Shown: one piece after another, positions 12,217 through 17,030 of the stretch
Layout: each line of letters begins with the position of its first letter
Position numbering within the stretch: position 1 is the stretch's first letter
DNA from: Rhodospirillales bacterium
Lineage (GTDB): Bacteria; Pseudomonadota; Alphaproteobacteria; Reyranellales; Reyranellaceae
Length of the DNA: 64,000 nucleotides
Reading direction: 5' to 3'
Assembly: GCA_009377525.1 (NCBI GenBank)
Contig: WHTW01000005.1
Span: forward strand, 1 to 64,000
The notes under the pieces: model-generated
Seen by the model: only the letters and a program-made list of their open reading frames with translations
Databases searched by the model: none
Told to the model about the DNA's origin: nothing
Program-made: the position numbers and the translations under genes

Positions 12217-13221
12217 ATGAAAGCCATGATCTGCCGCCAATGGGGCGGGCCCGAGGACCTGAAGCTCGAGGACGTCGAGCCCGCTGCACTGAAGTCCGGT
12301 CAGGTGCGCATCCGCATCAAGGCCGCAGGCGTGAGCTTCGCCACGACCCTGGTGATCGCAGGCAAGTACCAACGCCGACCGCCCTTCCCGTTTGCGCCGG
12401 GTACCGAGGTTTCGGGCGTGGTGACCGAGGTGGCGCCCGGCTGCAAGCGGCTGAAAGTCGGCGACGAGGTCGTGGCGGTGCTCGATTGGGGCGGCCTCGC
12501 CGAGGAGGCGGTGGCGCACGAGGTCAATGTCTTCGCCAAGCCGAAGAATGTCGGCTTCGTCGAGGCGATACAGCTCGCCATCTCCTACCCGACCTCGGGA
12601 GGCGCACTGACCTGGCCGATGGCGCTGGACGTACAGGAGGGCCAGACGCTGCTGGTGCATGCCGCGGCCGGCGGCGTCGGCATGGCGGCGGTCGAGATCG
12701 GCAAGATCCTAGGCGCCACGGTGATCGCCACCGCAGGCGGACCGCGCAAGACGGCCTTCGCCAAGGCGCGCGGCGCCGACCACGTGATCGACTATGCCAC
12801 CCAGGATTTCCGTGAGGAGGTGCTGAAGCTCACCGACGGGCGCGGCGTCGACCGCGTCTACGATCCGGTGGGCGGCGAGGTATTCGCCCAGTCGCTGCGC
12901 TGCATGGCGATCGAGAGCCGCATCTGCCCGATCGGCTTCGCCGGCGGCACCATCCCGCAGATCCCGGCCAACATCCTGCTGATCAAGACCATCGCCGTGA
13001 CCGGCTTCAACTACGGCTACTACGTCGGCTGGAGCCCGCACGACGCGCGCTTCGAGCAGGCCGACCGCACCTTCGCGCTGATGGAGCGCATCCGCGGCTG
13101 GTGCGAGGCCGGGCTTTGCCGGCCGCATGTCGACCGCACCTTCCGGCTCGACCAGGCGGCCGAGGCGATGCGCGCGCTGCTGGAACGCTCGGTGACGGGG
13201 CGGGTGGCGATCGCGCTCTAG
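12217..13221 (+). CDS. NADPH:quinone oxidoreductase family protein (MDR superfamily)
   Basis: A 334-residue zinc-free medium-chain dehydrogenase. The N-terminal GroES-like half includes PFAPGTEVSGVVTEV. The Rossmann half has the nucleotide loop HAAAGGVGMAAVEIGKILGA near residue 148, in the AAGGVG form typical of quinone oxidoreductases. There are no structural zinc cysteines. The probable reaction is NADPH-dependent reduction of quinones or enones. It follows a P450 across a repeat-filled gap of 167 bases and converges on a protein kinase gene with a 4-base overlap. Confidence 0.9.
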   Translation: MKAMICRQWGGPEDLKLEDVEPAALKSGQVRIRIKAAGVSFATTLVIAGKYQRRPPFPFAPGTEVSGVVTEVAPGCKRLKVGDEVVAVLDWGGLAEEAVAHEVNVFAKPKNVGFVEAIQLAISYPTSGGALTWPMALDVQEGQTLLVHAAAGGVGMAAVEIGKILGATVIATAGGPRKTAFAKARGADHVIDYATQDFREEVLKLTDGRGVDRVYDPVGGEVFAQSLRCMAIESRICPIGFAGGTIPQIPANILLIKTIAVTGFNYGYYVGWSPHDARFEQADRTFALMERIRGWCEAGLCRPHVDRTFRLDQAAEAMRALLERSVTGRVAIAL

Positions 13222-14600
13222 CTCGGGCGCTGCCGCAGGAAGGCGGATCGTTCGGCGGGCTGCTCGATGTGGGTTGAAAGAGCCTGCCAGAGAACCTCGA
13301 CAGACGAGGCTTGGGCGGCCGCGCGGCGCACCAGGACGCGGGCAATCGGTCCCACGAACTGGGTCAGCGCCGCCTGCGCCCGCTCGAGCTCCTGCTCAGG
13401 CAGGCTGACCTTGCCGCGGCCACTGCTGTCGCTCAGCGAGGCGCTGCCTGTCGGTGCTGACGGACGGGGCCGCGCCAGCGACGCCACCTCGCGGCGGAAC
13501 CGCTCGCGGTCGGCCTCGTCGGGCACCGACAGCGCGAGCTCCGAGCAAAGATCGGCGGCGGAACGGCCGCGCGCCGCGACCGTCTGCACCAGAATGCGCG
13601 CGACCGGACCGACATAGGCCCGGAGCTTTTCCTCCACCGTCGTCAGCAGCGCGGGATCGAGCGGCGGGCGCGGCTCGCGCACGACGGAGTCCTCGCGCGG
13701 TGGTGTCCGCGGCGCACCGCCAGGTGCCGCGAGGCCGCCCTCGGGCACGATGCGCGTGCTGTCGGGCGCGGCATCCCGCAGCACCTGGCGCAAGGCCTCG
13801 GCCATGTCGGCGCCGGTATCGAAGCGGTCCGCCGGATGCTTTCCCATGGCGCGCTCGAGCACCAGCTGCAGGCGGGGCGCCGCGCTGCGCACGTGGACCG
13901 GCAAGAGCGGCAGGCTGTCGTTCTGGATGCGGTGGCTGACCTCGGTCACGTTGCGGCCCTGGAAAGCCCGTTCGCCGGCGACCATCTCGAACAGCGTGGC
14001 GCCAACCGAAAAGATATCGGACCGGCCGTCGACGATGTCGTCACCGCGGCACTGCTCGGGTGACATGTAGGACGGCGTGCCGATCGTCGAGAAGACGGTC
14101 GTGGTCTCCACGTTCATCAGCCGCGAGATGCCGAAATCACCCACCTTCACCCGATGCTCGGCGGTCAGCATGATGTTGCCGGGCTTGATGTCCTGGTGGA
14201 TCACACCCTGCTCGTGCGCGCTGCTCAGCGCATCGAGCACCTGCAGCATGATGGCGATGGCGTCAGGAACGTCCATGACCGGCGCATCGTCGAGAAGTTG
14301 GCGCAGGCTGCGCCCGGCGACGAACTCCATCGCCAGGTAGGGCTGCTCCTCGTGAAGGGCAAAGTCATAGACCGCAACGATGTTGGGATGTGCGCAGCGG
14401 GCGGCCGCCTCGGCCTCGCGCCGGAAGCGCTTGATGTAATCGGCGCGATCGGCGCCGCTCATCAGCTTGGTCGAGATCAGCTTGATGGCGACGGTCCGGC
14501 GCAGGACGGGATCCTGTGCCCTGTAGATCTGGCCCATGCCGCCAACGCCGACCAGCTCCTCGACGACGTAGCGGCCGATATTGGGCGGGAGCGGCTGCAT
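13218..14600 (-). CDS. Hanks-type serine/threonine protein kinase
   Basis: A soluble 460-residue kinase with no transmembrane segment. The catalytic domain has the Gly-rich loop GVGGMG (18-23), VAIK with Lys40, the catalytic loop HQDIKPGN (135-142; Asp137) and DFG (155-157). Gln replaces the Arg of HRD, so it is a non-RD kinase and may not need activation-loop phosphorylation. After a Pro-rich linker come two copies of a helical unit (YVGPVARILVQTVAARG and FVGPIARVLVRRAAAQA, about 95 residues apart) that recur in proteobacterial kinases. It is last in a three-gene run with a heme HAMP sensor (25 bases upstream) and a caspase-fold protein, which suggests the sensor feeds this kinase (inference). 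Confidence 0.93.
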   Translation of the reverse strand: MQPLPPNIGRYVVEELVGVGGMGQIYRAQDPVLRRTVAIKLISTKLMSGADRADYIKRFRREAEAAARCAHPNIVAVYDFALHEEQPYLAMEFVAGRSLRQLLDDAPVMDVPDAIAIMLQVLDALSSAHEQGVIHQDIKPGNIMLTAEHRVKVGDFGISRLMNVETTTVFSTIGTPSYMSPEQCRGDDIVDGRSDIFSVGATLFEMVAGERAFQGRNVTEVSHRIQNDSLPLLPVHVRSAAPRLQLVLERAMGKHPADRFDTGADMAEALRQVLRDAAPDSTRIVPEGGLAAPGGAPRTPPREDSVVREPRPPLDPALLTTVEEKLRAYVGPVARILVQTVAARGRSAADLCSELALSVPDEADRERFRREVASLARPRPSAPTGSASLSDSSGRGKVSLPEQELERAQAALTQFVGPIARVLVRRAAAQASSVEVLWQALSTHIEQPAERSAFLRQRPS

Positions 14601-14625
14601 GACTACCGTCCCCGAGGGACACCGC

Positions 14626-15501
14626 TCATGTGCCCTCCAGCATCCTCATGGCGTTCTGAAGGCTGCGATGCATCAGATTGAACGAGCGGCCGAGCGAGGA
14701 GATCTCGTCGCGTCCCTTGACCGGGTATTCCGGCACGTCGGTCTTGCCGCCGCTGACATCGCGCGCGAGCGCGGTGATCTGCTGTATCGGCCGCAGGATG
14801 ACGAAGTGCATCAGCACGTTCAGCACCACGAGCATCACCGCGAACACCGCGCTGAGCGACCCCACGAATGCCAGCAACGACCGGTTGGCGCGATTGAGCG
14901 CGACGCTCATCGGAACCGACACGATCTGCGCCCCGATCACGTCGTTCAGCTGCCAGCCGAATCCGTTGCTGTTGCCGTAGAGGTCGACCATGGTCGGCGG
15001 TGCAGCCGCCGGCGTCGAATGGCAGGCAAGACAGGCCTTGTCGGTCAGGCGAAACGGCCGGGCGAACGTCATGAACGGACCCGTTGCCGTGTCGCGAATG
15101 CCGACGAACTCGGCAAGCTTGGGATCGTTCTTGAAGGCATGGATGACGTCCGACTCCCAGTTCGTGGCGCGGTCGGCCGGATTGGTCGGGTTGAGAGCCG
15201 CCTCCTTGTAGGAATAGTCGGGGAAATCCTTCTGCAACTGATGCAGCACGGTCTGCGCCGAGTACGACGGAACCGAATGGGGCAGGAAGCGCACCGCGAG
15301 CTGGTCGATGATGAGCGGCCGGATCTCGTTCTGGGTGTAGCTGCGGACAGCCGTGCCGCTGCGCATGATGAGCGTCGCCTCGTTCAGCATCTGGCGCCTG
15401 GCTTCCTCGATCGTGATCTCCCTCGCCAGGAAGGCCGCGATCGCCAGGCCGATCAGGAAGGCGGCGACCATGACCAGATTGAATTTCGTCCGGAGGCCCA
15501 C
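14626..15501 (-). CDS. DUF3365-type heme-c sensor with HAMP domain
   Basis: A 291-residue inner-membrane protein. A signal-anchor helix (residues 8-27) leads into a periplasmic domain of about 180 residues (DUF3365/Tll0287-like) that carries one c-type heme site, C157-LA-C160-H161. A second helix (209-236) and a HAMP domain (236-288) follow, and the protein ends there with no output domain. It should sense redox state or a small ligand at the heme and must signal through a partner. The soluble kinase 25 bases downstream is the obvious candidate. The start is GTG 15501; the nearby ATG is out of frame, and AAGGGG precedes it. Confidence 0.88.
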   Translation of the reverse strand: MGLRTKFNLVMVAAFLIGLAIAAFLAREITIEEARRQMLNEATLIMRSGTAVRSYTQNEIRPLIIDQLAVRFLPHSVPSYSAQTVLHQLQKDFPDYSYKEAALNPTNPADRATNWESDVIHAFKNDPKLAEFVGIRDTATGPFMTFARPFRLTDKACLACHSTPAAAPPTMVDLYGNSNGFGWQLNDVIGAQIVSVPMSVALNRANRSLLAFVGSLSAVFAVMLVVLNVLMHFVILRPIQQITALARDVSGGKTDVPEYPVKGRDEISSLGRSFNLMHRSLQNAMRMLEGT

Positions 15502-15516
15502 GGCATCACCCCTTGT

Positions 15517-15558
15517 CTTGATGCTCAGCTCTTGATGCTCAGCTCTTGATGCTCAGCG
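15517..15558. repeat. Three tandem 14-base repeats at the pseudocaspase stop
   Basis: CTTGATGCTCAGCT is repeated three times head to tail (last base differs in copy 3). On the minus strand each unit carries a TGA, and the first is the pseudocaspase stop codon. The array fills almost the whole gap to the next gene and may have changed the intergenic spacing by slippage. Confidence 0.9.
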
Positions 15559-16620
15559 CACGCTGTTGACGAGCTTTGTCGCTTGTTCGGCGGTGAGACG
15601 GCCCGTCATCTCGGCTTTGATCTCGAACTGATAGCGACGGATGGCAGCGCGAGTTTCGGGCCCAAAGGTGGCGTCTATGCGGCCGGAATAGTATCCCAGA
15701 GTGGCCAGCACGACCTGGACCTGCCGCCGATCCTGATCGGACATGCGATCCTCGTCCACCATCACCTGCTGCGGCGGCGGTGCCGGTGCAGCCGGCGGCG
15801 CAGGCGCCGCGGGCGCCGGAGTTGGAGCGGGTGGCGGCGGCGCTGCGGCCACCGGCGGAGGCTGGACGGGGGCGGCTGGAGCGGGCGGCGGCTTCCCGCC
15901 GACCAGGAACGAGGGGCGACCGGTCGCGGCAACGAAGAAGGCCGTGCCGGCGCCACCCTTGGTGAGCTCGCGCCGCATGCCGCCGACGAACTTCTCGAGG
16001 CTGACCTCGTCGCCCGTCATCTGGCCGCGCAACGCCCGCGCTGCCGCCGTCGGCCCTTGAGCGGCAGTGTCGTTGTTGGCGCCGATGACGGCGAAGCTGC
16101 CCGGCTTGATCTGCTCGGCCAGCCGGGCCAGGCCGGTCGCGGGGGCGTCCGGCGGCGCGAACCCGTCCAGCAGGACGACGCCCGTGCTGTCGCCGACGCG
16201 CGCCAGGCTGTCCACCAGGCTCTTGGAGATGAGGCCCTGGGTAAGAACGTCGTTGTCGCGCGTGATGTTCGCGGCGGCGGGCAGAAGGAACGAGCGGCCG
16301 TTGAACTCCAGCGCGTAGCCGCAATAGTACAGCACGGCGACAGACGGAGGCGACGCCGCGGTGCGCTTCGCCAACGCGCCGATGGCGGCGTCGAATTCGC
16401 CCCGTCGCACGTCGCTTCGCTCGACGACCTCGAAGCCCTTGCCGCGCAGGGCGTCACGCACGACGGCGGCCGAGGCGGTGCACCGCGGAAGCGGCGGCAG
16501 GTTGGCATATTGTCCGTTGGAAATGACCAGGGCGGTCCGCAGCGGCTGGGACTGTGCCGAGCTCGTGTTCCAGCAGAGGCCGGCAAAGCCGAGCAGAATG
16601 GTGACGAGGCAAGCGCGCAT
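15553..16620 (-). CDS. Secreted caspase-fold protein lacking the catalytic dyad, with peptidoglycan-binding domain
   Basis: A 355-residue exported protein. Residues 1-22 are a signal peptide. A caspase-like (C14) domain follows, with LRTALVISNGQYANLPPLP at 27-45 and AVLYYCGYALEFNGRSFLLP at 95-114. Active family members have His in Y-Y-x-G-H-G and Cys in D-A-C-R. Here the sequence reads YYCGYA (Tyr102 for His) and LLDGFAPP (Phe154 for Cys), so both catalytic residues are lost. A Pro/Ala linker (about 244-285) leads to a PG_binding_1 domain (about 295-352). I use ATG 16620, which opens the signal peptide. It probably works as a scaffold or ligand-binding protein in the periplasm, upstream of the heme sensor and kinase. 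Confidence 0.85.
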   Translation of the reverse strand: MRACLVTILLGFAGLCWNTSSAQSQPLRTALVISNGQYANLPPLPRCTASAAVVRDALRGKGFEVVERSDVRRGEFDAAIGALAKRTAASPPSVAVLYYCGYALEFNGRSFLLPAAANITRDNDVLTQGLISKSLVDSLARVGDSTGVVLLDGFAPPDAPATGLARLAEQIKPGSFAVIGANNDTAAQGPTAAARALRGQMTGDEVSLEKFVGGMRRELTKGGAGTAFFVAATGRPSFLVGGKPPPAPAAPVQPPPVAAAPPPPAPTPAPAAPAPPAAPAPPPQQVMVDEDRMSDQDRRQVQVVLATLGYYSGRIDATFGPETRAAIRRYQFEIKAEMTGRLTAEQATKLVNSVR

Positions 16621-16801: not shown

Positions 16802-17030
16802 CTAGCCAGGCCCCGCCGCCAGCAAGCCCTTGGGGTCCATGGCGCGCGTGGTGTCCTCGATCACGTAGGTCGTGAAGCCGAGCTTGCGCGCATCCATCGC
16901 CGACCAGGCGACGCAGAAGTCGGTGGCGAGCCCAGTCACGAACACCGTGTTGACGCCGCGCTCCTTCAAATAGCCCGCCAGGCCGGTGATGGTCTTCCCC
17001 GTCGGCAGCTCAAGATGCGCGAGCCAAGTC
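16802..17030 (-). pseudogene. pncA: Nicotinamidase/isochorismatase C-terminal fragment (pncA remnant)
   Basis: Read on the minus strand this stretch encodes KTITGLAGYLKERGVNTVFV, then TGLATDFCVAWSAMDARKLG, then the ending LAAGPG and a stop. This is the last third of a nicotinamidase, including the catalytic Cys of the DFCV segment. There is no start codon and the N-terminal two thirds are absent. An in-frame stop precedes it (near 17028), and the MFS gene begins just beyond. A deletion probably joined the MFS 3' end to the middle of pncA. Confidence 0.8.

Follow-up and report, generated by a model that had tools for sequence, protein, structure and literature searches.

The window analyzed here, a 64,000-nucleotide stretch at the start of contig WHTW01000005.1 (assembly GCA_009377525.1), comes from an alphaproteobacterial genome (G000) close to Reyranella, the genus of the nearest named sensors on our tree. 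On its minus strand lie, in order, genes for a secreted caspase-fold protein (pseudocaspase), a membrane sensor with a periplasmic heme site, and a soluble Ser/Thr kinase (Table 1). The original prediction, made from the DNA alone, had read this trio as a split receptor kinase, with the wall-bound pseudocaspase and the heme sensor reporting envelope or redox state to the cytosolic kinase. Its description of the gene order, spacing, and domain make-up proved correct in every structural detail, including the 25 bases (14601-14625) between the sensor stop and the kinase ATG. The three genes are presumably co-transcribed; no terminator-like site was found between them, and promoter and terminator scans were otherwise uninformative. 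The genome as a whole encodes one PF11845 protein and one Peptidase_C14 protein, both at this locus, and CcmE is present, which fits heme c.

The sensor matches the Tll0287-like family (PF11845/DUF3365, sCache_heme) with an E value of 1.8e-39 and has two hydrophobic helices (residues ~7-32 and ~207-240), with a periplasmic Cache domain between them. Both features predicted for it were found, namely a periplasmic CxxCH heme site (C157-H161) and a HAMP domain devoid of an output domain, which spans residues 235-282 of 291 and stops 9 residues short of the C terminus. The CxxCH motif is invariant in 94 of 94 sensor homologs, and the homologous sensors also end 0-9 residues after the matched HAMP end, the HAMP tail being conserved up to the end. 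A second axial Cys ligand of the Tll0287 type is not conserved among the 94 sequences.

The kinase (Pkinase, E value 5.7e-47) has a catalytic domain closest to PknB/PknA. Since the residues expected of a Hanks-type enzyme (K40, E62, H135, D137, N142, and the DFG motif) are invariant in 37 kinase homologs, the kinase should be active. The HQD loop that had been noted in place of HRD is indeed present, but it is not a trait of the system. This position is R in 32 of the 37 aligned kinases and Q in the remaining 5, all of which belong to the window's clade, and HRD is found both in a genus ortholog (L048) and in relatives outside the genus. A non-RD loop as a regulatory hallmark is thus ruled out, and HQD is a quirk of the genus.

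What the original description lacked is a tandem domain at the C terminus of the kinase, at residues ~318-376 and ~402-458. There, two copies of a ~57-residue three-helix domain, which we call GPIA, share the consensus L..LA..IGPIARVLVRRAA..A.S...L...LA.HI.D..ER..FL, and AlphaFold models each copy with high confidence as one long helix and two short ones. No Pfam or NCBIfam model matched above its cut-off over kinase residues 318-458 or on the corresponding part of relatives.

We determined how conserved the linkage of these genes is by surveying 100 relatives plus the window's genome. Clear sensor orthologs (76-100% identity) occur in 12 genus genomes at 13 loci. The pseudocaspase, sensor, and kinase genes follow each other in this order at 12 of the 13, so the three are not usually apart within the genus; the thirteenth locus, a second copy in genome G047, has only sensor and kinase. 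The distribution of the trio is nevertheless patchy because most genus genomes lack the unit. A wider survey scanned 84,980 species genomes and found 266 relatives, of which the best 80 were kept, a top-scoring set rather than a random sample. The loci themselves supplied the sequences for the hidden Markov models of kinase, cyclase, GPIA, and HAMP used here. Among these 80 loci, which are mostly alpha-, beta-, and gammaproteobacterial, 77 have a kinase and/or cyclase gene downstream of the sensor, nearly always with one or, more often, two copies of GPIA at the C terminus, and usually no more than a few tens of bases past the sensor stop. Two of the three loci without a downstream effector lie on truncated sequence (L114 at a contig end, L069 on a short contig with its upstream side missing), and L072 is a true exception. 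In other genomes, the linkage survives changes in gene order, with the effector upstream of the sensor in L176, L177, and L178, and with one sensor between a kinase and a cyclase gene in L179 and L180.

The bias inherent in keeping the best 80 was corrected for with two genome samples. In 249 genomes of the phylum, PF11845 occurs in 85 and GPIA in 4 (two of them the window's genome and a genus mate), and all four GPIA genes adjoin one of this subfamily's sensors. No GPIA gene or convincing kinase was seen at the other PF11845 loci that were examined, and several of their proteins are fused to an output of their own or lack HAMP. In 276 gammaproteobacterial genomes, sensor and GPIA are both present in 19, the sensor only in 1, GPIA only in 5, and neither in 251 (Fisher p 8e-24, not corrected for relatedness). 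Two genomes with weaker or differently built sensor-like matches (G370 and G412) were excluded from this count, and in the sensor-only genome (G569) a contig end truncates a kinase that adjoins a sensor. Pairing across classes, co-occurrence, and linkage that persists through changes of order and effector strongly support the predicted split receptor kinase, composed of a HAMP-only sensor and a separate kinase.

The effectors themselves are diverse. At the 80 loci we found 53 kinase-GPIA-GPIA, 19 kinase-cyclase-GPIA-GPIA, and 2 cyclase-GPIA-GPIA architectures, as well as 4 partial or split ones, with the cyclase part matching PF00211. Since the sensor tree (94 rows) needs about ten changes of effector label, counting rows without an effector and bearing in mind that this is a quick tree with several long branches, there have been exchanges of effector in which GPIA was retained. 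Separately, a GPIA-like sequence lies in an open reading frame of genus genome G003 (L192, 2942-3430) with no kinase or sensor nearby, and is possibly a gene remnant.

We tested the prediction that kinase-less GPIA genes should also adjoin bare HAMP receptors if these are what GPIA serves. The first survey had yielded two, L186 and L187, each beside a dCache-HAMP protein. A third, L190 (841-4125), shows in a row a GTPase-roadblock gene, a roadblock-like GPIA protein, and an output-less dCache-HAMP receptor, possibly a receptor-coupled GTPase system. A broader search, its model now including these three, yielded four more (L203-L206), each next to a protein ending 7-15 residues past HAMP. All seven divergent kinase-less GPIA genes adjoin receptors of other sensor types, which end 7-18 residues past HAMP. 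Their N termini resemble DUF4388 (L204 and L205, and L187 at an E value of 0.15) or a winged helix (L203), below curated cut-offs. The six genomes concerned have 3-41 HAMP domains each, from which we roughly estimate a 0.3-2% chance of a HAMP neighbor per gene, and seven out of seven is by this rough measure far beyond chance. On balance, we lean toward a general role for GPIA as a domain that receives signals from bare HAMP receptors; it would couple unrelated effectors (Ser/Thr kinase, nucleotide cyclase, kinase-cyclase, PATAN-like, roadblock/GTPase, and winged helix) to output-less Cache-HAMP sensors, with the receptor kinase in the window as one member.

The third gene of the trio is less constant. 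Its product combines a Peptidase_C14 domain (residues 28-141, E value 7e-10), a Pro-rich linker, and a peptidoglycan-binding domain (PG_binding_1, residues 295-350, E value 1e-10). An AlphaFold model with a mean predicted local distance difference test (pLDDT) score of 83.7 has MALT1 caspase domains as its top PDB matches. A phmmer alignment places G101-Y102 opposite the GH(G) motif of MALT1, with Tyr102 at the position of the catalytic His. Tyr102 and Phe154, correctly assigned beforehand to the His and Cys sites, are both invariant across the 12 genus orthologs. The protein thus shows the defining features of a pseudo-orthocaspase, a p20 fold with His and/or Cys replaced. A decaying pseudogene is ruled out by conservation of these orthologs at 57-89% identity. 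Dyad loss extends to the whole system-linked group, since both residues together occur at the aligned positions in none of the 21 linked caspase domains, which also rules out His and Cys at shifted positions. The pairs found there include Y/F, Y/I, Y/V, Y/A, R/A, L/T, L/A, and H/F, and the domain at L060 retains His without Cys. Two side observations concern the flanks of this gene. The gap to the sensor gene holds a perfect 14-bp tandem repeat in three copies (15516-15557) that takes in the caspase stop codon. Just upstream of the gene, at about 16840-17030 on the minus strand, an isochorismatase-like C-terminal fragment (PF00857, profile positions 102-154) looks like a remnant.

A pseudocaspase precedes the sensor at about 20 of the 80 loci, mostly alphaproteobacterial, in Reyranella, Acetobacteraceae, one Rhodospirillaceae genome, one Rubrivivax, and one Chromatiaceae metagenome-assembled genome, and one is perhaps present in reverse orientation at L062 and L081. 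At many gammaproteobacterial loci, this position is held by a different secreted protein or lipoprotein family, which shares a C-terminal motif around FWPTWP and has no Pfam match. Since one family is replaced by the other, the slot upstream of the sensor seems to take an envelope protein that differs from lineage to lineage, and the pseudocaspase would be a lineage-specific envelope accessory. The place given to it in the receptor by the original prediction therefore stands as regards adjacency in the genus, but a core role in sensing is weakened by its limited distribution, its absence from one G047 copy, and its replacement in gammaproteobacteria.

Table 1. Features of the locus in the window and, in the last row, upstream genes at other sensor loci
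Feature	Coordinates	Strand	Basis
Pseudocaspase gene, 355 residues	15553..16620	-	Pfam domains, phmmer, ortholog alignment, AlphaFold model
sCache_heme (PF11845/DUF3365) transmembrane sensor, GTG start, 291 residues	14626..15501	-	Pfam domains, homolog alignment
Soluble Hanks-type Ser/Thr kinase, HQD loop, 460 residues	13218..14600	-	Pfam domains, homolog alignment
First kinase GPIA domain, about residues 316-371	13488..13655	-	Domain model, AlphaFold
Second kinase GPIA domain, about residues 403-458	13227..13394	-	Domain model, AlphaFold
FWPTWP-type upstream genes	L085 4967-5980, L075 5017-5982, L084 4613-5989, L100 5407-5985, L113 5299-5820		

We consider it likely that these genes encode a split receptor running from a heme-c Cache domain through a bare HAMP and GPIA to the kinase, most likely gated by nitric oxide (NO). 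In this scheme, the periplasmic Cache domain with its covalent heme c would sense a small ligand, most likely NO, and two membrane helices would relay the signal to a dimeric HAMP with no output domain behind it. The separate cytosolic kinase would dock on, or be controlled by, this bare HAMP via its two C-terminal GPIA domains and would then phosphorylate targets. In other lineages, a kinase-cyclase fusion or a cyclase would be plugged into the same receptor via GPIA, and GPIA on PATAN-like (DUF4388), roadblock-like, or winged-helix-like proteins might serve output-less receptors of other sensor types in the same way. In Reyranella-like and acetobacterial genomes, the non-proteolytic, wall-binding caspase fold probably serves to present or tune the sensor within the envelope; our guess is a binding module anchored to the wall, devoid of catalytic activity, that tunes the sensor or holds it in position.

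The proposed HAMP-GPIA coupling step is supported indirectly, by the gene associations described above, and several points weigh against it. The co-occurrence p-values ignore phylogeny, and two genes, a GPIA kinase (L199) and the sensor of L072, are partnerless within the stretch seen. GPIA could serve for dimerization or for another partner instead of docking on HAMP. Sensor and kinase might thus share a pathway without contact, with the sensor acting through another protein and GPIA being a dimerization or substrate-docking module. This would suit a helical, usually tandem domain, as well as a second kinase-GPIA-GPIA gene (L062, 8631-10031) that directly follows minD/minE-like genes with no adjacent receptor. 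We nevertheless regard it as unlikely, because GPIA alone is common to all effector types beside bare-HAMP receptors, including the seven divergent genes found with two search models. Furthermore, no other constant neighbor was recognized at the loci beyond the upstream pseudocaspase or FWPTWP-type gene, in a clustering that was swamped by antisense open reading frames.

The nature of the signal and the part played by the other genes also have to be weighed. The route from NO through heme c, Cache, membrane helices, HAMP, and GPIA to the kinase is proposed because tight NO binding and no stable oxy complex have been shown for a sCache_heme protein that carries a HAMP (PMC12889525). By analogy, the ligand of the window sensor is probably NO, and the redox state named in the original prediction becomes less likely. 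The NO result, however, comes from a single Pseudomonas protein, which may or may not belong to the window sensor's subfamily. We hold it as doubtful that the sensor instead reads electron flow or redox state and that redox stress in the envelope is what the trio reports. The heme c does face the periplasm and stand-alone family members have redox roles (PMC12889525), but the high NO affinity of the HAMP-bearing protein and the lack of a conserved second axial Cys of the Tll0287 kind argue for NO. It is quite improbable that the pseudocaspase is the true receiver, of wall fragments or envelope stress, with a merely structural heme. Adjacency, a peptidoglycan-binding domain, and conserved Y102/F154 would fit such a role, but the gene is missing at about 60 of the 80 loci and from one G047 copy, and every sensor has its CxxCH. 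As for a chance neighborhood of three unrelated genes, that the pseudocaspase is not universal is compatible with it, but conservation across classes together with swaps of order and effector already contradicts it for the sensor-kinase pair and leaves it a negligible probability.

HAMP domains are normally studied within one-piece receptors. If a bare HAMP signals to a separate protein, HAMP output could be reconstituted from purified parts, making an open question of the field testable. A predicted partner would become available for the NO-sensing Cache proteins with HAMP alone, which were described in 2026 with no named output, and heme/NO control would join the short list of known inputs to bacterial Ser/Thr kinases. 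These findings suggest that bacteria have a common means of connecting different enzymes to a single type of receptor.

Compared with known systems, the window kinase resembles the PASTA kinases PknB/Stk1 in its catalytic domain, but those are one-piece transmembrane receptors, whereas it has neither PASTA repeats nor a sensor part of its own. The PASTA kinase model NF033483 matched its kinase part only, under the cut-off, and a Pfam scan found no PASTA. Chemoreceptors with separate CheA/CheW and sensory rhodopsin-transducer pairs likewise divide sensor and effector between different polypeptides that are coupled at the membrane, but these transducers carry their own cytoplasmic signaling hairpin, whereas the window receptor stops at HAMP. 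A literature search for a HAMP-only protein paired with a Ser/Thr kinase found none described beyond GlnX-PknG, in which PknG differs in build from the window kinase. The GlnX-GlnH-PknG system of Corynebacterium glutamicum is the nearest functional precedent, where a soluble Ser/Thr kinase relies on both a membrane protein and a lipoprotein of the periplasm, encoded together in one putative operon (PMC9769921). GlnX, however, has four transmembrane helices, no HAMP, and amino-acid ligands, and the study leaves its contact with PknG open (PMC9769921), whereas the window sensor has two hydrophobic helices and HAMP, and the upstream gene encodes a caspase fold, not a solute-binding protein. Since pseudo-orthocaspases, which have the p20 fold without the His-Cys dyad, are already known and common in Alphaproteobacteria (PMC6426788), the novelty of the pseudocaspase lies in architecture and context, not in the fold. 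The described proteins have YS, YA, FS, QC, or HA dyads and TPR, trypsin, or DUF C termini, whereas the system-linked ones show Y/F and other pairs, a peptidoglycan-binding C terminus, and linkage to a receptor. Finally, the Pseudomonas azotoformans sCache_heme protein WP_033902098 shares the plan of the window sensor, with a periplasmic heme-c Cache domain, two transmembrane helices, and a cytoplasmic HAMP; Ser/Thr kinases and a partner for it go unmentioned in that study (PMC12889525), whereas here the sensor comes with a partner gene and a shared effector domain.

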